A stretch of 64,000 nt of DNA, taken from contig CALHPK010000003.1 in NCBI GenBank assembly GCA_938036315.1, positions 54,334 to 118,333 of the forward strand. Reading direction: 5' to 3'. The position numbers were made by a program, and so were the translations under genes. Origin of the DNA: an uncultured bacterium. GTDB taxonomy: Bacteria; Calescibacteriota; Calescibacteriia; Calescibacteriales; Calescibacteriaceae. The stretch's first letter is position 1, and each line of letters begins with the position of its first letter. Positions 1,069 to 54,099 of the stretch are shown piece after piece. The notes under the pieces are model-generated. The model had not been told where the DNA came from and did not search any database. It worked only from the letters and a program-made list of their open reading frames with translations.

Positions 1069-1630
1069 AAAGTTTCTTCTTCTCTATGTAATCTATAACA
1101 GAATCTGGCACAAGCCACTTTATAGATAATCCTTTTTCTATCCTTCTTCTTATCTCAGTTGATGAGATCTGGATTATTTCGGAGTTAATCTTTATAAAGC
1201 CTGGAATCTCTTCGGATAGACGTATTCTTGGGACCCAACACAGTTTGACCTTCTCCATTATTCTCTTGTAATCTTTCCAAGTGTTGAAAGAAACTGCAGA
1301 GTCTTCTCCCATAATCAAAAATATCTCAGAGTCTTTGAATTCTGAAGTAAAAAATCCGACAGTATCGATAGTATATGAAATTCCCCCTTTTTTTATTTCA
1401 TAATCTGATACTAAAAAATTCTTATGTTGTAAAGTAGCAATATCCACCATAATCAATCTATCCTGTGCTGAGGCATGCGGAACTTTTCCATGAGGTGGGA
1501 TGTTGGCAACAACAAAAATTACAAGGTCAAGAGAAAGCTGTTCCATACTTCTCTGAGCGACAACTAAGTGTCCGATGTGAGGAGGATCGAAGACTCCCCC
1601 AAATAGCCCTATTTTCCTCATTGACGCCAC
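1061..1630 (-). CDS. nadD: Nicotinate-nucleotide adenylyltransferase
   Basis: NadD transfers AMP from ATP to nicotinate mononucleotide, giving deamido-NAD in NAD synthesis. The 189 residues show the nucleotidyltransferase signature 'GGVFDPPHIGH' near the N-terminus and the 'ISSTEIR' motif near the C-terminus, with normal family length. The start is ambiguous: the first ATG (1630) overlaps dnaE by 13 bp, while a second ATG at 1621 gives the common ATGA 4-bp overlap with the dnaE stop. The latter better suits translational coupling and removes three residues. Neither has a clear Shine-Dalgarno sequence. Confidence 0.95.
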   Translation of the reverse strand: MASMRKIGLFGGVFDPPHIGHLVVAQRSMEQLSLDLVIFVVANIPPHGKVPHASAQDRLIMVDIATLQHKNFLVSDYEIKKGGISYTIDTVGFFTSEFKDSEIFLIMGEDSAVSFNTWKDYKRIMEKVKLCWVPRIRLSEEIPGFIKINSEIIQISSTEIRRRIEKGLSIKWLVPDSVIDYIEKKKLYR

Positions 1631-4600
1631 TGAACAAAGTTTTGGACAAAATCTCTTGGCAAAAGCACGGCTAAAAATCCATTTCCTAACAACTCTTCCT
1701 TCAGAGAAGCGGATATATCTATACTCTTTCTATAGGCAAATATATTCCCATTAACCTCCACTACAACCTTCATATTCCCTGCTTCCTGCTTTCTTAGCAC
1801 CTCTTTTAATCTTTCAACTTTCTGCCCAGATGTAACTTTGATAACAAGGCATGAATCTTCAATCTTAAAGAATATATCAGATACAAGAATATTTCCGGAT
1901 CTTTTTCCAAGAAAAACATAACTATCACCTTTTCTTATCTTTCCTGCATCTGGGCTCAAGAGAATAACTTCCAATACCTTGCCGTTTGAGACCTGGAGGT
2001 TTACAAGATATCCACTCTTGAGAATCAAGATATCTTTGACAATACCTACAACTTCAGAAATATCTCTTCTGACATCCAAGGGTAGAAATCCTTTTGAAAT
2101 TTCAGCTATCTTACTCTCAGCATTTTGCGAGGAAAGGAGAACCCCTATAGTTTCTATTTCCCACTTCTGAATATCATCATCTGATATCTCACTATTATTA
2201 CTTTTAAATAGAGATAGAGAAAGTTCTCCTGATAATCTGGCGTAGAGTATGTGGAGCGCCTTTTTTCTATCTATCATCTCATCAAAAGCTCCCGCTTTGA
2301 CCAATGTCTCAATAACCTTTTTATTTACTCCAAAATTTCTTGCTATATTTAGGAATCCCTCAAAGCTTGTGATTTTTAACTTTTCTCGCAACTTCAGAAT
2401 GGATTCAATGGCAGACTCCCCCAGTCCTTTTATTCCCCCAAGACCGAATCTTATCGCGTCGCCTTCAACTGTAAAGTCAGCAGAGCTTCTGGAAATTGAT
2501 GGTGGAAGGATCTTATAACCAAGCTTCAACAAAGTTTCTATGTATGAGGTAAGTTTTTCAAAATTCCCCATCTCAGACGACAGGAGAACCGAAATATATT
2601 CGAGCGGATAATTAGCTTTTAGGTAAGCAGTAACATAGGACAAGAAAGCGTAGGCAGCTGAATGAGATTTGTTAAAGGCATAGCCAGCAAACTTTTCCAT
2701 AATATCAAATATCTCCTCAGCTTTGCCCTTTTCTATTCCATTTTTTACACAACCTGATATAAACTTCTCTCTTATTGACTCCATCAGCTCAGCCTTTTTC
2801 TTCCCCATAGCCTCGCGTAGGATATCAGCTTCTCCCATAGTGAAACCTGCAAGAATATTTGCACAAAGCATTATCTGCTCCTGATATAGAAAGCTCCCAT
2901 AAGTTTCTTTAAGGATTGGCTCAAGCTTAGGATGTGGATATTCTATTGGCTTCAATCCCTTTTTCTTTTCAATAAAATCTGAAACCATTCCAGATTGAAT
3001 AGGTCCCGGTCTGTAAAGAGCAACCGCAGCTATAAGCTCATAGATATTTTCGGGCTCCAGTTTCATAAGCATCTCCCTCATACCTGCGCTTTCGAACTGG
3101 AAGACACCGAAAACATCTCCCTTTTTGAGCATCTCATAAGTTTTCTTGTCATCAAGTGGGATGCTTTCAAAACTTAACTCAATACCGTACCTTTGCTTTA
3201 TAAGTTTGAAAGTTCTATCTACTACAGTCAGGGTTTCAAGTCCAAGAAAGTCGAACTTAACAAGCCCTATTTTTTCGAGAGATTCCATATCAAAGTGCGT
3301 CGTAAACTCATCTTTAGATCTTGAAATCGATGTATATTCGGTTATTGGTTTGTCTGATATAACAAAACCTGAAGCATGAGACCCTACATGCCTTATCAGT
3401 CCCTCTATTTTTTTCGCCTTCTCCAAAATTGTTTTGAATTTGTGATTTGAATCAACAAGATCTTTTAATTCTGGGATTTTCTGATAGGCTTCTTCCAGTG
3501 TCCATTTTTTCGATGGTTCTTGTGGTACAAGCTCGGCAAGAGTTGAAACATCTTCTATCGGCTCACCAAGAATTCTTCCTACATCTCTTATTGCTGCGCG
3601 AGCTCCAAATGTTCCAAATGTTACAATATGAGCAACATGATCTTCTCCATATTTTCCCTTTACATAATCAAGAATTGATTCTCGCTTCTCTTTGCAGAAA
3701 TCTATATCTATGTCTGGGGGTTTTTCCCTTTCTGGATTCAAGAACCTTTCAAATAGGAGCCCGTACTTTATTGGGTCAAGCTCGGTTATTCTGAGACTCC
3801 ATGAAGTTAGAGCTCCTGCTGCAGAACCTCTGCCCGGACCCACAGCTATTCCCGAATTTTTCGCAAATCTGATGAAATCTTCGACAACAAGGAAATATGA
3901 CGAAAAACCTTTCTGAGAGATTATATCAAGCTCGTATCTTAGCCTATCCCAGTACAGATTTTCGTCGAATTTCTCTCCTCTTTTTCTTTTTTCTTCTAAT
4001 CTAATTTTCAGACCTTCCTCTGCTTTTCTTCTTATGGTTTCATCAGGGTCTCCAAATTCAGGTGGCTTTGGAATTCTCAGACTCCTCGCTTTCTCGAACT
4101 CAAAATTACACTTTTTAATAATCTCCTGATGAGTTTCAATAGCCTGCGGGATATCTCCAAAAGCAGATTTCATCTCATCATATGATTTCAGATAAAGTCC
4201 TCTTATTTTATATCTGAACTTTCTGTCGGATGAATTAAGTTTCTCACCATAAGAGATAGCAACGAGCATATCCTGTACCTCAAAGTCAGCTGGATCAGCA
4301 TAGTGACTGTCTGCAGTAGCCACAACTGGTATTTTGAGCTTTTCCGAAAACTCAAGAAGATAATCATTAACTTTTCTTTGTCTTGCAATAGCTTGTATAT
4401 CTGTTTCTCTATGCGGATCAGCAGGCTCTCCCCTCATCAACTCAAGGTAGAAATCTTCACGAAAGTGATATTTAAATAGTTCTGCCATCTTGAAGGCTTC
4501 GTCGTATTTACCCTCTACAATAAGGCGCGGTAAAATACCATTAAGACAACCTGATAATACAACCAGTCCCTCTTTATACTCAAGAAGAGTCTGGACATCA

Positions 4601-4947
4601 ATTCTGGGCTTTCTGTAGAAACCCTCAATATTAGCTATCTTCAGAAGAAGACATAGATTCCTGTACCCGATCTCGTTTTTTACAAGAACGGTCAGATGAA
4701 AATTTCCTTCTTCTTGTAACTTTTCTGTAAGTCTTCTTGGAGCTACGTATACTTCACATCCTATGATAGGTTTCAATCCAGCTTCCTTAGCTTTGAAAAA
4801 AAACTCCACTGCTGAAAAAATGTTTCCGTGCTCAGTTAATGCTACCGCTGAGATTTTCCTCTGAAGTGCCCTTTCTACAAGCTGATCAACTGTCATTGCT
4901 CCATCCAGAATACTGTAGTGAGTATGAGAATGAAAATGACCTATCAT
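1618..4947 (-). CDS. dnaE: DNA polymerase III alpha subunit
   Basis: The replicative C-family polymerase, 1109 residues (E. coli 1160). The N-terminal PHP domain keeps metal-type residues: 'HFHSHTHYS', 'LTEHGN', 'GCEVYVAP' and 'TADSHYAD'. The polymerase core has 'GPGRGSAAGAL', the catalytic 'PDIDIDF', 'RHVGSHASGF', 'YQEQIM' and 'NKSHSAAYA'. The tail includes a helix-hairpin-helix region and a short OB-like end; a long C-terminal tau-binding tail is not evident. A strong Shine-Dalgarno AGGAGGTG precedes the ATG. It lies downstream of comM after a 195-bp gap and overlaps nadD. The apparently intact PHP site contrasts with the degenerate E. coli one. Confidence 0.97.
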   Translation of the reverse strand: MIGHFHSHTHYSILDGAMTVDQLVERALQRKISAVALTEHGNIFSAVEFFFKAKEAGLKPIIGCEVYVAPRRLTEKLQEEGNFHLTVLVKNEIGYRNLCLLLKIANIEGFYRKPRIDVQTLLEYKEGLVVLSGCLNGILPRLIVEGKYDEAFKMAELFKYHFREDFYLELMRGEPADPHRETDIQAIARQRKVNDYLLEFSEKLKIPVVATADSHYADPADFEVQDMLVAISYGEKLNSSDRKFRYKIRGLYLKSYDEMKSAFGDIPQAIETHQEIIKKCNFEFEKARSLRIPKPPEFGDPDETIRRKAEEGLKIRLEEKRKRGEKFDENLYWDRLRYELDIISQKGFSSYFLVVEDFIRFAKNSGIAVGPGRGSAAGALTSWSLRITELDPIKYGLLFERFLNPEREKPPDIDIDFCKEKRESILDYVKGKYGEDHVAHIVTFGTFGARAAIRDVGRILGEPIEDVSTLAELVPQEPSKKWTLEEAYQKIPELKDLVDSNHKFKTILEKAKKIEGLIRHVGSHASGFVISDKPITEYTSISRSKDEFTTHFDMESLEKIGLVKFDFLGLETLTVVDRTFKLIKQRYGIELSFESIPLDDKKTYEMLKKGDVFGVFQFESAGMREMLMKLEPENIYELIAAVALYRPGPIQSGMVSDFIEKKKGLKPIEYPHPKLEPILKETYGSFLYQEQIMLCANILAGFTMGEADILREAMGKKKAELMESIREKFISGCVKNGIEKGKAEEIFDIMEKFAGYAFNKSHSAAYAFLSYVTAYLKANYPLEYISVLLSSEMGNFEKLTSYIETLLKLGYKILPPSISRSSADFTVEGDAIRFGLGGIKGLGESAIESILKLREKLKITSFEGFLNIARNFGVNKKVIETLVKAGAFDEMIDRKKALHILYARLSGELSLSLFKSNNSEISDDDIQKWEIETIGVLLSSQNAESKIAEISKGFLPLDVRRDISEVVGIVKDILILKSGYLVNLQVSNGKVLEVILLSPDAGKIRKGDSYVFLGKRSGNILVSDIFFKIEDSCLVIKVTSGQKVERLKEVLRKQEAGNMKVVVEVNGNIFAYRKSIDISASLKEELLGNGFLAVLLPRDFVQNFVQWRQ

Positions 4948-5142: not shown

Positions 5143-6651
5143 TCAGAGAAGGTTAAAGAATGCCTCGGCTTTCCGTAATCCCAAAGCTTCAAGGATATGC
5201 TCCTTTTTTATATTGTTCTCACCTTCCAAATCCGCTATTGTTCTTGCCATCTTCAGAATTCTAAAAACTCCGCGTGTAGAGAGCGAAAATTTTGCTATCG
5301 CCATCTTTAAAATATTTTCACACTCAGTATCTACTGTGAGAAAATCCTTCTGATACTTAGGAGGAACTTCGGAGTTAAGCAGAAAACCAAATTCTTTATA
5401 TCTCCTCAGTTGTATCTCTCGAGCCTGTAACACCTTCTCACGCATAAATTTAGTCTCACCACGACTTTCGGATTTTGAGAAAATTTCTTCCGCCTTCAAT
5501 GCGGGGACTTCAAGATACATATCAAACCTATCGAGCAATGGACCCGATATCTTTGAAATATACCTTTTTATCTGGGATAAAGAGCAAACACATTCTTTTT
5601 CGGGATTTTTGTAATTCCCACATGGGCACGGATTCATTGCACAAATAATCTGGAAACTAGACGGGAAAGAAACTGTCCTCTGAGCGCGAGATACTACAAC
5701 TTTTCTATCTTCCAACGGTATTCTTAAAGCTTCCAAAGTTTGCCTTCTAAATTCAGGAAGTTCATCTAAGAATAGGATTCCCCTATGCGCTAAGCTAACC
5801 TCGCCTGGGCGGGGGATTGATCCACCCCCTATCATAGCGACATCAGAAATCGTATAATGAGGAGCTCTAAAAGGTCTCAACCCAGTTTTTCTCGATATCC
5901 CAGCTATAGAGTATATCCTCATAACTTCTAATTCCTCCTCTTCGGAAAGCGGGGGTAATATAGATAATATCGATTTAGCTAAAATGGTCTTACCAGCCCC
6001 AGGCGGTCCGACCATAAGGATATTATGTCCACCCGCAGCTCCTATAAGTAAAGCTCTCTTTATCGCTTTATGCCCAACTATATCGTCAAATGTGATCTCA
6101 AAGTCCTCCGAATCGAGCTTCAATTCCTCCTTTTTAATCTCGGGAAGAAAACGCTCCCCTTTGATCAAAGATATCACATCCCTGAGATTCTCAGCGAAAA
6201 ATCCCTCTGCTCCAACGAAACAAACTTCCCTATTTTCTGCCGGAACCACAATTTTAGCTTTCTTCTCTTTTGCATACATCGCAATAGATACTATACCCCT
6301 TACCGGCTTCAGCTTACCGTCAAGTGAAAGCTCTCCAACAAATATCAATGGAGCAACACTGAACCTTTCAGTGATAGAGATTATCCCAACAGCAATTGGA
6401 AGATCATAAAATGATCCCTCTTTCTTTATATCCGCTGGAGCAAGGTTTACAGTTATCCTCCTCAATGGGAATTGAAACCCGGAATTTTTTATTGCGCTTT
6501 TTACCCTATCCCTGCTTTCTCTCACAGCTGAGTCCGGGAGCCCAACTATATTGAACGATGGAATCCCACTGGATACATCAACTTCAACCTGCACATCGTA
6601 AGCATCTATCCCTAAAACTCCTGCTGAAAATACCTTTATAATCTCTGACAT
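5143..6651 (-). CDS. comM: ComM/YifB family AAA+ ATPase (Mg-chelatase-like)
   Basis: 502 residues of the YifB/ComM family. In naturally transformable bacteria ComM is a hexameric helicase that drives branch migration when incoming DNA is integrated. The N-terminal domain opens 'VFSAGVLGIDAYDVQVEVD' and is Lon-like (about 1-170). The AAA+ core has Walker A 'GPPGAGKT', Walker B-like 'ILFLDELPEF', and the family's Cys cluster 'CPCGNY...ECVCS'. The C-terminal Mg-chelatase domain carries 'FSLSTRGVFRILKMARTIA'. The start lies 1 bp beyond the SpoIID stop, so the two are almost certainly co-transcribed. Confidence 0.93.
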   Translation of the reverse strand: MSEIIKVFSAGVLGIDAYDVQVEVDVSSGIPSFNIVGLPDSAVRESRDRVKSAIKNSGFQFPLRRITVNLAPADIKKEGSFYDLPIAVGIISITERFSVAPLIFVGELSLDGKLKPVRGIVSIAMYAKEKKAKIVVPAENREVCFVGAEGFFAENLRDVISLIKGERFLPEIKKEELKLDSEDFEITFDDIVGHKAIKRALLIGAAGGHNILMVGPPGAGKTILAKSILSILPPLSEEEELEVMRIYSIAGISRKTGLRPFRAPHYTISDVAMIGGGSIPRPGEVSLAHRGILFLDELPEFRRQTLEALRIPLEDRKVVVSRAQRTVSFPSSFQIICAMNPCPCGNYKNPEKECVCSLSQIKRYISKISGPLLDRFDMYLEVPALKAEEIFSKSESRGETKFMREKVLQAREIQLRRYKEFGFLLNSEVPPKYQKDFLTVDTECENILKMAIAKFSLSTRGVFRILKMARTIADLEGENNIKKEHILEALGLRKAEAFFNLL

Positions 6652-6652
6652 C

Positions 6653-7525
6653 TCAGTATATTCTTTTGAATTTAAGTAATGGAAAATAAAACTTTAGTAT
6701 TTCCTTCCAAGAGGCACCCTCCTCCGCTAGCTTCTTTGCTCCCCATTGACACATCCCCACCCCATGACCAAAGCCTCTGCCGTAAAATATTATGTTCCCA
6801 TCACCAACGACCTCAACATCCAAGAAGTTACTCTTTAGAAACTTCCTTATATCATAATAATCAAGAAATATTCCATCCTCCGGAAAAATTATAGATATCA
6901 CCCTTCCATGCTCAGTTTTCTCAAGATACACATCTCTGGTAATCTTATTCCAATTATTGCGAGAAAAAATAAGCTTAGCAGTAGTATCAGTTAAAATCTT
7001 TCCAAAGTTCATAATATCGCGAATTCTCATTTTAACTTTCCAGAAAAAGTGAGGAGAATCATAGCATTTCCCACAATTTACAGAAACTATATACTTGAAA
7101 TCTGGATTTCTCCCCCACAGCTCCCACGCTGATTCTGTACTGCCTCCGCATGTCGAATGAAAAAATCCCGGAGCTATGGAACCATTTGGGAAGGTTAGAA
7201 CCCAACCACGTGTTTCATCAACAAGATTTGATATTCTACTTGTCCAGCGATATTTGAATACCTGATTCTCTGGACCTGCTACAACATACCTTCTTTCATT
7301 TTGCAATACATAAAGAACATATGAACGAGAAACGACAGCCTGGGCTTTTATGGCTTCATCTGGCCAACCATCAGGAAGCTCCCCAAACACAACCCCTTTC
7401 ACATACTCTTCAAGATCAACCTCCCTATACTTCCCATCAATGTAAACTTTCACCTTGGGCGGGAATGATCCATATGCTGGCGATGTAAACACCAGAATCA
7501 GAAAAAAAACAGAAATGTATCTCAC
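6653..7525 (-). CDS. SpoIID/LytB-domain exported protein (probable peptidoglycan lytic enzyme)
   Basis: A 290-residue secreted protein with a signal peptide ending near 'SPAYGSFP' (about residue 20). The SpoIID domain shows 'GELPDGWPDEAIKAQAV', containing the Glu that is catalytic in SpoIID lytic transglycosylases, and the C-terminal 'GRGFGHGVGMCQWGA' motif. SpoIID cleaves denuded glycan strands during sporulation; LytB homologues occur in many non-sporulating diderms. No sporulation gene is seen here, so a wall-remodelling role is inferred. It sits between the Cas4-like nuclease gene and comM, nearly touching comM. Confidence 0.9.
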   Translation of the reverse strand: MRYISVFFLILVFTSPAYGSFPPKVKVYIDGKYREVDLEEYVKGVVFGELPDGWPDEAIKAQAVVSRSYVLYVLQNERRYVVAGPENQVFKYRWTSRISNLVDETRGWVLTFPNGSIAPGFFHSTCGGSTESAWELWGRNPDFKYIVSVNCGKCYDSPHFFWKVKMRIRDIMNFGKILTDTTAKLIFSRNNWNKITRDVYLEKTEHGRVISIIFPEDGIFLDYYDIRKFLKSNFLDVEVVGDGNIIFYGRGFGHGVGMCQWGAKKLAEEGASWKEILKFYFPLLKFKRIY

Positions 7526-7549
7526 AGCTAATTTGAATTTTACTTATCT

Positions 7550-8251
7550 TCATATTAATTTTTTATCACAAAGTGTTCTAAAATAGCACAAGGAACATAG
7601 ATTTTTAGATGCTGAAACTTTTGGTTCTCTCTTGCCCAACCAAAAATCCATTATATCACTCACCGTATTTTCCACTGCTTGCTTTAAATCCCTGAAGAAA
7701 AAAATCTCAGATCTCATAGATTGATCCACAACATTCAGTACTTTTATCTCCAATTCAAGATCTTTGATTTCTACAATATCCGGAAGCATTCTCTCTATAC
7801 AAATAGCGTACAGGCCACACTGAATTATGTCAGAAACATATACATCTTGATTCTTCCTTGTTTTAAGCTCCGATATTCTCTTTAACCTTCCTGATTCAAA
7901 GAATATCCTATCTGGAATCCCAGAAATAAGGACTTTTTTGTTAATCTGAAAATCCTCCCAGATGAAACCCAACTTCAATGTGATCTCCAAATCTCCTTTT
8001 GCCTCAAGAACTTTATCAGCTTCCTCAGGTACAATCTTCTCATATGGGAATAGACTATTATGTATCCGTAAGCCTCTTTCCATCTCTGGTGTAGCCTCAA
8101 ACCCAAATTTACTCTCGAGTATTTTTCTCCACTCACAGTATATTGAGCTCGAGATATCAGAAACAAAAATTCTTGGAATTCTATTTTTTGCGGAAAAATC
8201 TACCAGCAGAGAAAATTTTTCAACAAGTGAAGATATCAAATTTTTGTACAT
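7550..8251 (-). CDS. Cas4/RecB-like PD-(D/E)XK nuclease with predicted Fe-S cluster
   Basis: A 233-residue protein with every landmark of the Cas4/AddB exonuclease fold: His64 ('GLRIH'), Asp114 ('SGIPDR'), Glu128-x-Lys130 ('SELKTRK'), Gln144 and Tyr148 (motif QxxxY). Four cysteines lie as in Cas4 iron-sulfur proteins: Cys39 near the N-terminus and C219-x2-C222-x5-C228 at the C-terminus. Cas4 proteins resect DNA ends, and in CRISPR systems trim prespacers. No cas1, cas2 or CRISPR array is present, so this is a solitary Cas4-like nuclease. It lies 7 bp after the unknown 8259-8807 gene and before SpoIID and comM, hinting at DNA repair or uptake. Confidence 0.8.
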   Translation of the reverse strand: MYKNLISSLVEKFSLLVDFSAKNRIPRIFVSDISSSIYCEWRKILESKFGFEATPEMERGLRIHNSLFPYEKIVPEEADKVLEAKGDLEITLKLGFIWEDFQINKKVLISGIPDRIFFESGRLKRISELKTRKNQDVYVSDIIQCGLYAICIERMLPDIVEIKDLELEIKVLNVVDQSMRSEIFFFRDLKQAVENTVSDIMDFWLGKREPKVSASKNLCSLCYFRTLCDKKLI

Positions 8252-8258
8252 AGTAAAT

Positions 8259-8807
8259 CTATAGCTTATTCAGAATTTCCTCAATCTTTACAGAAATTGC
8301 CTTCCTGACAGAGCTATTTGTGAACTCTCTTTTTTCTCTTTTTTCAATAGCATTCCATATTTTCAAGAAAAGTTCTTGCGGTATAAGAATCTGATTACTG
8401 TGAATTTCAGACTTTCGCATCTGTGAAAATCTTTGCTTAAAATCTTTTATAGAAAATTCTTCACAGAGTTTTTTAATCAAAAAGCTCCTAAAACTTATCT
8501 CATTCTTCTTTATTATCTCGCTTATCTTTTCGTGATTACTAAAATTAAAAATTATATTTACATAACGAGTTCTTGGAGATATACTACCGCCACATCTGAA
8601 GAGCTCAATAAAATCAAGAATAATTTTCCTTTTCCTGCCCCTGAAAAACTCAGCTGCTTTCTCAAGATCGCTAAGAGAAAAATCGGCAAACTTCTTCTTT
8701 CTCCTCACAACCCCCAACCTATGCTTACCCAGTGTGAATATTTCTAACTCTGCGGGAATATCTTTAAGACTATTTATTTTCTCCACAAGCTGAGCGACCT
8801 CATCCAT
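8259..8807 (-). CDS. Basic protein of unknown function upstream of the Cas4-like nuclease
   Basis: 182 residues that I do not recognise. It is Lys/Arg-rich with little aromatic content, no signal peptide and no membrane segment. A central 'RRKKKFADFSLSDLEKAAEFF' region is followed by 'FRGRKRKIILDFIELF', and the C-terminal half is largely helical with repeated KR pairs ('IEKREKREFT'). That composition would suit nucleic-acid binding, but this is inference. It ends 7 bp before the nuclease start, so it is probably co-transcribed and possibly a functional partner. It heads the run leading to comM and dnaE. Confidence 0.7.
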   Translation of the reverse strand: MDEVAQLVEKINSLKDIPAELEIFTLGKHRLGVVRRKKKFADFSLSDLEKAAEFFRGRKRKIILDFIELFRCGGSISPRTRYVNIIFNFSNHEKISEIIKKNEISFRSFLIKKLCEEFSIKDFKQRFSQMRKSEIHSNQILIPQELFLKIWNAIEKREKREFTNSSVRKAISVKIEEILNKL

Positions 8808-8843: not shown

Positions 8844-8887
8844 AATATTGACAATAAAAATCAATAATATTGACAATAAAAATCAAT
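8844..8887. repeat. Two-copy 22-bp tandem repeat
   Basis: A perfect duplication of a 22-bp unit (starts AATATTGACAAT) in the 215-bp spacer between the 8259-8807 gene and the polyprenyl synthase gene. It lies just upstream of the former and could sit in its promoter. No gene is seen in the spacer. Confidence 0.9.
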
Positions 8888-9022
8888 AAAAAAAAGAAAC
8901 AAAAATGGAGCACTTGGCAGGATGGTATTTGCTTATACTTTTTACAAAAATCAATTTGTCACATTTTTAACATATCTGATTTACATACGAGCTATCCTAT
9001 GCGTATTTGTATAAAGGTTATG

Positions 9023-24749: not shown

Positions 24750-25853
24750 TCAGACTACATCTTCTCCTCTTGGCACAACTATTTCACCCTGCTGTTCAAG
24801 TCTTCTTATAACTTTCAGTATCTCTTGTTGTGCCTTTTCAACATCTAATTTCCTGACAGGTGGCATCGTTTCAAGCTCCTCCCGCAGAACCTTAGCAGCT
24901 CTTTCGCTCATAGCCCCAAGTATTTTCCTTTTCACAGGTTCAGAAGCTCCTTTCAATGCTTTGAGTAGAACTTCTCTGTCTATCTCCCTCAGTATCACTC
25001 CTATATATCTGTTGTGAATTTTGACTATGTCATCAAATGTAAACATCCTTTGCCTCAATTCTTCCGCAAGTTCTGGCTTTATCTTCTCTATCTGTTCAAG
25101 AATTTCTTTTTCAAGTCCCGGGGGAGCATTCAGGACAACTTCTAAAAGAGAATTTATACCACCGACTCTCTTTGTACCTCCAACCGCTCTGTATTCCTCA
25201 TCAAGTACAAGCCCTATTTCATCAACAACCCCTGGTGCAAGCCTATCGAGAATAGCTACTCTACTCAGGATCTCCCCAATCATATCCTTCGGAAGAAATT
25301 GTAGGACCTCTATGGCTTTCCTTGGGTCAAGATATGCAAGAACTACAGCCATAGTTTGAGGATGTTCTTTCTTTATGAAATTCGCTATAGACTGTGCATC
25401 AAGATCGTGTAGTACATTCATACTTGCGGTATCCCCAACTTTCAGGAATATTTTTAATCTTTCCATTATGGCGGCAGCCTTGGCGGGACCAAACACGTTC
25501 GACAGAACCTTCTGAATATACTCAAGTCCGGAACCAACAATGACATCTTGTCTTGTGAGTCTTACGAACTCATTCAGTACATCCACAGCCACCTTCTTTG
25601 GTATGACATCAAGATGAATCATCTCCTCTGTTACCTTTTGAACCTCTTCCTCCGAGAGTCTTTTTAAAATCTCCGAGGCTTTATCCTCCCCCAGAGTCCT
25701 CAAAAGTATCGCGACTTTTCTCGGTCCAGATAAGCCTCTCTTTATAGGTACTGCTCCCTCTTTCTCCCGATTTTCTCTATCTACTCGACTTCCAACTTCT
25801 ACTTTTTCTGATTTTACCTCACCTTCCATCTCTATCTTTTTCCCTTCTACCAT
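24750..25853 (-). CDS. fliG: Flagellar motor switch protein
   Basis: FliG is the rotor protein that couples stator force to rotation and switching. The 367 residues start with a charged extension of about 40 residues, then the N-domain 'GPRKVAILLRTLGEDKASEI', the middle domain with the conserved 'EHPQTMAVVLAYLDP', and the C-domain 'FDDIVKIHNRYIGVILREID' carrying the charged torque helix ('SERAAKVLREELETM'). Slightly longer than the usual 330-340 because of the N-extension. It is not beside other basal-body genes. No Shine-Dalgarno is seen. Confidence 0.95.
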   Translation of the reverse strand: MVEGKKIEMEGEVKSEKVEVGSRVDRENREKEGAVPIKRGLSGPRKVAILLRTLGEDKASEILKRLSEEEVQKVTEEMIHLDVIPKKVAVDVLNEFVRLTRQDVIVGSGLEYIQKVLSNVFGPAKAAAIMERLKIFLKVGDTASMNVLHDLDAQSIANFIKKEHPQTMAVVLAYLDPRKAIEVLQFLPKDMIGEILSRVAILDRLAPGVVDEIGLVLDEEYRAVGGTKRVGGINSLLEVVLNAPPGLEKEILEQIEKIKPELAEELRQRMFTFDDIVKIHNRYIGVILREIDREVLLKALKGASEPVKRKILGAMSERAAKVLREELETMPPVRKLDVEKAQQEILKVIRRLEQQGEIVVPRGEDVV

Positions 25854-25883: not shown

Positions 25884-25925
25884 TAAATAGATTTTAATCT
25901 TTCAATAAATAGATTTTAATCTTTC
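25884..25925. repeat. Two-copy tandem repeat, 20-bp unit at 22-bp period
   Basis: Two identical TAAATAGATTTTAATCTTTC units separated by 2 bp, upstream of fliG. Function unknown; it may fall in the fliG promoter. Confidence 0.9.
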
Positions 25926-53890: not shown

Positions 53891-53926
53891 AGCATCATAA
53901 TTAGCATCATAATTAGCATCATAATT
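53891..53926. repeat. Three-copy 12-bp tandem repeat
   Basis: Three perfect copies of AGCATCATAATT within the gene-poor region. Because the unit is a multiple of three it would encode a repeated tetrapeptide on the minus strand, but that frame is not otherwise gene-like. Confidence 0.92.
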
Positions 53927-54099
53927 AAGCATTTTATCAACAAAGCCTACTACAAGTTTTTCTTGAATTTTGTCTCTTTACACCTTTGTGGCTCATAAAT
54001 GTTTATACGATCTTCTAAAATAGTGGAAAACTTTCAAGCCAGAAAAATTTTCTAAGATCTACTTAAATCCTACGCTATGCGCAAAATAGATTATTATTT

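Follow-up and report, generated by a model that had tools for sequence, protein, structure and literature searches.

Genes for DNA-cutting enzymes are often interpreted from their neighbours, and the locus considered here raises the question of whether a solitary nuclease and the small basic protein encoded next to it form one DNA-processing module or are two separate proteins that happen to be adjacent. The locus lies in a stretch of 64,000 nucleotides, referred to as the window throughout this paper, from an uncultured member of the Calescibacterota (Calescamantes, EM19), a lineage of uncultured hot-spring bacteria (PMC4791363). The five ORFs of the locus are encoded on the minus strand, and the order and coordinates given for them in an earlier note made from the sequence were confirmed. 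A 182-aa basic protein (8259-8807) is followed by a 233-aa nuclease (7550-8251), a SpoIID/LytB-domain protein (6653-7525; TIGR02669, 172 bits with a cut-off of 83.3, and PF08486), a YifB/ComM-family Mg-chelatase-like AAA ATPase (5143-6651; TIGR00368, 574 bits with a cut-off of 362.4), which is the final gene of the tight run, and a DnaE-like ORF (1618-4947). The gaps between them, from the 182-aa gene onward, are 7 bp, the spacing that had been noted for the first pair, then 24, 1 and 195 bp. Given the short gaps and the common strand, the genes from the 182-aa protein to the YifB/ComM-family ATPase could be one transcription unit. The 182-aa and nuclease ORFs are real genes, since both are under purifying selection, with NG86 dN/dS values of about 0.26 and 0.09, respectively, between the two closest relatives.

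The earlier note had proposed that the run is a DNA-processing module linked to uptake or repair. The reading preferred here, with a probability of roughly 70%, is that the two genes encode separate lineage-core DNA proteins, a solitary Exo5/Cas4-type nuclease and a single-chain tandem ribbon-helix-helix (RHH) DNA-binding protein, which are neighbours, and probably co-transcribed, only in this genus. Four relatives were compared with the window's own genome, namely HRbin19, BF2.bins.44 (BF2), Candidatus Calescibacterium sp. SKYB43 and Candidatus Calescibacterium nevadense; the Calescibacterota genomes are drafts of 82-86% completeness. Orthologues of both proteins were found in all five genomes, each in single copy.

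The nuclease is 38-47% identical to its four relatives. The landmarks of the Cas4/AddB class listed for it earlier (H64, D114, E128-x-K130, Q144 and Y148) were correctly identified and are invariant in all four, as are C39, C219 and C222; the fourth cysteine, C228, is kept except in C. nevadense, where there is an ambiguous base and the copy is cut by the contig end. The RecB-type motifs H, D, ExK and QxxxY together with the four cysteines, which form a predicted 4Fe-4S site, fit the Exo5/Cas4/AddB nuclease superfamily (PD-(D/E)XK fold, four-Cys site). In profile searches the protein passed the cut-offs of Exo5 (PF09810, 33.3 bits against 25) and PDDEXK_1 (PF12705, 25.8 against 22) and stayed below those of Cas_Cas4 (PF01930, 18.9 against 22.7) and of cas4 (TIGR00372, 40 against 65). 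The same was seen in the family: the four full-length members, the window copy included, scored 33.3, 37.0, 36.7 and 31.7 bits with PF09810, and none of them reached a Cas4 cut-off. The original description as Cas4-like thus stands for the Cas4/AddB class, but Cas4 itself is too specific a name. Exo5 shares with the protein the order of the catalytic motifs, the C-terminal cysteine cluster and a score over the curated cut-off, although the window protein is bacterial and shorter (233 aa against a profile of 367 positions). The nuclease domain of AddB has the same RecB-type motifs and four-Cys staple, but no helicase partner was found for the nuclease in these five genomes.

The nuclease had also been described as lacking CRISPR partners, with the reservation that a cas1/cas2 locus elsewhere might explain it. 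No cas1 was found in the window's own genome or in HRbin19. BF2, SKYB43 and C. nevadense have a cas1 locus elsewhere, and it carries its own Cas4 of 168-174 aa, located between the cas3-side genes and cas1 and scoring far above the Cas4 cut-offs. The solitary nuclease is therefore independent of CRISPR, being kept with and without cas1 and being distinct from the true Cas4 wherever cas1 exists. Solo-Cas4 and Cas4-like nucleases with suspected roles in repair or defence are a known kind (PMC5704561). Those described as solo-Cas4 or pfam12705 Cas4-like share with the present protein a stand-alone PD-(D/E)XK domain, four cysteines, the lack of cas linkage, mostly vertical inheritance and occurrence in environmental lineages (PMC5704561); unlike them, it falls under the Cas4 cut-offs and over that of Exo5. 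In three relatives it coexists with a CAS-Cas4, a combination termed extremely rare in bacteria (PMC5704561).

The gene neighbourhoods of the four relatives bear directly on the question of a module. In all four, the nuclease gene and the 182-aa gene are located on separate contigs, with unrelated surroundings. The nuclease gene has coaD-side genes on one side and znuA/pth on the other in HRbin19 and BF2, and adjoins tatD/malQ-like genes in SKYB43. The 182-aa gene adjoins LigD_N and tetrapyrrole methylase genes in BF2 and HRbin19, directly follows mfd in C. nevadense, and is found among Thi4/siroheme-type genes in SKYB43. SpoIID orthologues are placed elsewhere with different neighbours, and at the relatives' loci neither SpoIID nor ComM was found travelling with the nuclease or the 182-aa gene. 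When 57 ORFs of the window were searched against these loci, with the three anchors (nuclease, 182-aa protein and SpoIID) set aside, recurrence was limited to a FliD-like protein, two further orthologues and a single weak paralogue. Separately, three genomes of one family (L046, L047 and L048) were seen to encode a Cas4/AddB-like ORF of 265-284 aa directly after another ORF, and in two of the three a LexA-like gene lies next to it.

Two alternatives to the reading as separate proteins concern the pair and its nuclease. That the pair is a functional module, in which the tandem RHH protein, like TraY at oriT, would recognise a site and bring the nuclease to it for uptake, transfer or repair together with ComM, draws on the 7-bp spacing and the tight packing with a ComM-family gene, on the partnership of TraY and DndE with machines that cut or modify DNA, and on the presence of ComEC in all five genomes. 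The survey of related genomes, which had been named beforehand as the comparison that could count against such a module, showed the pair not kept as neighbours in any of the four and neither gene accompanied by ComM or SpoIID; the module as originally proposed is thus unsupported, and we consider this alternative improbable. The separation still leaves room for some functional link, because gene order is generally scrambled between this genus and its relatives. Since none of the four relatives has the two genes together, we prefer to read them as separate, individually informative genes and not as one machine. An origin of the nuclease as a true Cas4, left over or orphaned when a CRISPR adaptation module was lost, is more improbable again: its best NCBIfam match is indeed TIGR00372 cas4, PADLOC Cas4 models match it and three relatives have CRISPR-cas, but it scores under every Cas4 cut-off, persists in genomes with and without cas1, and stands beside a separate CAS-Cas4 in the relatives that bear cas1. 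As an observation on the lineage itself, the ComEC-type DNA uptake channel (PF03772) is encoded in each of the five genomes (L051-L055), which makes natural transformation plausible in Calescibacterota.

With CRISPR set aside, the nuclease can be considered as an enzyme in its own right. In Sulfolobus, Cas4 acts on ssDNA as a 5'-3' exonuclease and, like AddB, binds its Fe-S cluster through four cysteines (PMC3466216). The solitary Exo5/Cas4-type nuclease would trim DNA ends; its PD-(D/E)XK site probably acts on single-stranded ends, the Fe-S staple would hold the fold, and the enzyme may replace the end processing done elsewhere by AddB or RecB nucleases. Its nuclease activity, polarity and role in repair are inferred. 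UvrD-family helicases (PF00580 and PF13361; UvrD/PcrA/Rep/AddA/RecB type) were not found in the five Calescibacterota genomes, while 13 of 14 control genomes were positive, and, with no UvrD/AddA/RecB-type helicase found, end resection is a plausible job for the nuclease. These absences are only as reliable as the genome search, because the genomes are drafts and the same search missed the nuclease itself with PF12705. An initial scan of the genome contigs with the nuclease gave no match. If true, a lineage-wide lack of UvrD-type helicases is unusual, and a solitary Exo5-type nuclease set apart from CRISPR, where AddAB, RecBCD and UvrD were not found, makes broken-end processing directly testable.

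PF00580 matches of 1577-1584 aa in two genomes (G001 and G004) were considered as RecB/AddA and rejected as AAA_11/12-type proteins. The match in C. nevadense (G004; L058:2487-7238) is an AAA_11/AAA_12 helicase that bears a restriction-type nuclease domain (MTES_1575) and resembles a defence protein; that in G001 appears alike by eye. The large AAA_11/AAA_12 helicase-type proteins located in C. nevadense and BF2 (L059:1-4734) measure 1577-1583 aa.

The 182-aa protein was first noted as basic and unassigned, and both points were borne out. Its pI is 9.9, and in all five family members the pI is 9.7-10.0 and the net charge +13 to +22. The relatives are about 28-38% identical to the window copy. 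Searches of Pfam, NCBIfam, PADLOC, PHROGs and PDB sequences yielded no more than chance-level matches (e.g., ArsA, SH2 and a histone doublet), and none in Pfam, NCBIfam or the PDB sequences was to an RHH family; RHH domains are short and diverge fast. A degenerate DNA pattern derived from the five gene copies recovered exactly the records of the four relatives in the named genome collection, and no credible match was detected in 331 other genomes or in plasmids, phages and viral contigs. Partial matches in G045, G021, G016, G331 and G049 had E values of 1e-4 to 1e-2, some with internal stops, and were dismissed as chance. The protein is thus a new family, found only in Calescibacterota.

Although the sequence libraries name no family, structure prediction, the check proposed earlier for this protein, has made a fold assignable. 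An AlphaFold model was built on the five family sequences. It consists of an N-terminal domain (residues 1-78) and a C-terminal domain (residues ~79-182; 8259-8573 on the minus strand), and the C-terminal half alone was modelled by AF2 with a mean pLDDT of 86.4 and a pTM of 0.77. The secondary structure assigned by DSSP (E82-86, H92-102, H106-117, E139-143, H144-158 and H164-181) contains two strand-turn-helix-helix units, which are also visible by eye in the family alignment. When the domain was compared with solved structures by VIA-align, the five leading rows were TraY (Z 5.6), DndE 7x4e (5.5), AvtR (5.0), DndE 4lrv (4.9) and DndE 5wtu (4.3), all of them tandem RHH proteins aligned over 77-86 of 104 residues, and the next row had a Z of 3.1; TraY and DndE were again the leaders with the full-length model. 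Z values of 5-6 are too low to prove a relationship by themselves, and Foldseek searches with the full model and the domain returned nothing significant (best E 0.48 and 0.98 in the PDB). The call therefore depends on the unanimity of the leading VIA rows and on the modelled secondary structure, and by prediction the C-terminal half is a single-chain tandem RHH, a known DNA-binding fold.

The three reference proteins are described as single-chain tandem RHH proteins; TraY and AvtR are reported, and DndE is proposed, to bind DNA as monomers (PMC10853773, PMC12117103, PMC5569661). The F-plasmid TraY (9f0x/9f0y) has strand-helix-helix twice in one chain and aligns over 84 residues, but the 182-aa protein is chromosomal, lacks conjugation linkage, has an extra 78-residue N-terminal domain and shows no detectable sequence similarity to TraY. 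Neither conjugation genes nor oriT linkage was seen in the five loci, where the neighbours are housekeeping genes, and there is no plasmid relative. DndE (7x4e, 4lrv) likewise has the tandem RHH in one chain (86 residues aligned), whereas the putative reading face is invariant, not variable, in the 182-aa family; DndD or a CxC-clade ABC ATPase was not seen as a neighbour in the five loci. AvtR of Acidianus filamentous virus 6 (4hv0) is a tandem RHH monomer aligned over 82 residues and, unlike the bacterial 182-aa protein, a transcription regulator of an archaeal virus.

Alternate residues of the RHH sheet face the DNA, and in Arc they are Gln9-x-Asn11-x-Arg13. The register Y82-x-N84-x-[IKRRR]86 of the first strand resembles this, and the second strand has Q139-x-L141. 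Of these putative DNA-facing residues, assigned as outward-facing from the alternation, Y82, N84, Q139 and L141 are invariant; position 86 is Ile in the window protein and Lys or Arg in the four relatives, and the inner hydrophobic positions 83, 85, 87, 140 and 142 vary. The invariance of the putative outer positions suggests one conserved type of DNA target for the family. The sheet inserted into the major groove would be formed by pairing of just two strands, 82-86 and 139-143, and a single monomer would thereby do the job of an Arc or CopG dimer, as in TraY, DndE and AvtR. Most likely the protein would be a site-specific regulator or a chromosome-site binder with one conserved target type; its DNA binding, target and regulation are inferred. 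The family, present in every sampled member of a candidate phylum, thus acquires a testable fold and a likely role as a one-chain RHH DNA binder. A picture that joins both proteins, in which Calescibacterota lack all UvrD/AddA/RecB-type helicase-nucleases and resect ends with a stand-alone Exo5-type nuclease, and in which the RHH protein, a single chain peculiar to the lineage, recognises a conserved site in the chromosome and cooperates with the nuclease, in this genus at least, is put forward as a long shot.

Two further proposals concern what the 182-aa protein binds. The high net charge in all five members and a single-copy, lineage-wide gene in housekeeping contexts would suit a nucleoid-associated, chromatin-like protein of the lineage instead of a site-specific factor, but the invariance seen within the putative base-reading strands points to readout of sequence, and we regard the chromatin-like role as unlikely. 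The other proposal starts from a perfect 22-bp tandem duplication (AATATTGACAATAAAAATCAAT) at 8844-8889, 37-82 bp ahead of the ATG of the 182-aa gene, where the promoter presumably lies. It comes with ATTGTCAAT inverted repeats, whose starts are 48 and 70 bp upstream of that ATG, and when the 215-bp region was shuffled 1000 times (first-order), a repeat of this length never arose. The duplication could be a candidate operator at which an RHH protein regulates its own gene, or it may simply reflect slippage. Repression of the own gene is common among RHH regulators, including AvtR (PMC5569661), and by binding this repeat the protein would control its own transcription unit. Against this, the element has its sole copy in the genome here and is absent upstream of the gene in the four relatives, though the putative reading face is conserved, and no operator common to the five genomes was found in front of the RHH gene. 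Autoregulation through this repeat is accordingly judged unlikely, and site-specific binding with one conserved target type remains the preferred reading of the protein. A second perfect duplication of 22-bp period and different sequence lies at 25884-25925, about 30 bp ahead of where a FliG-like gene (24750-25853, minus strand) starts, and it also speaks against an operator, since such duplications may be slippage. Elsewhere in the window, a 12-bp tandem array (AGCATCATAATT) of about 3.4 copies occupies positions 53891-53932.
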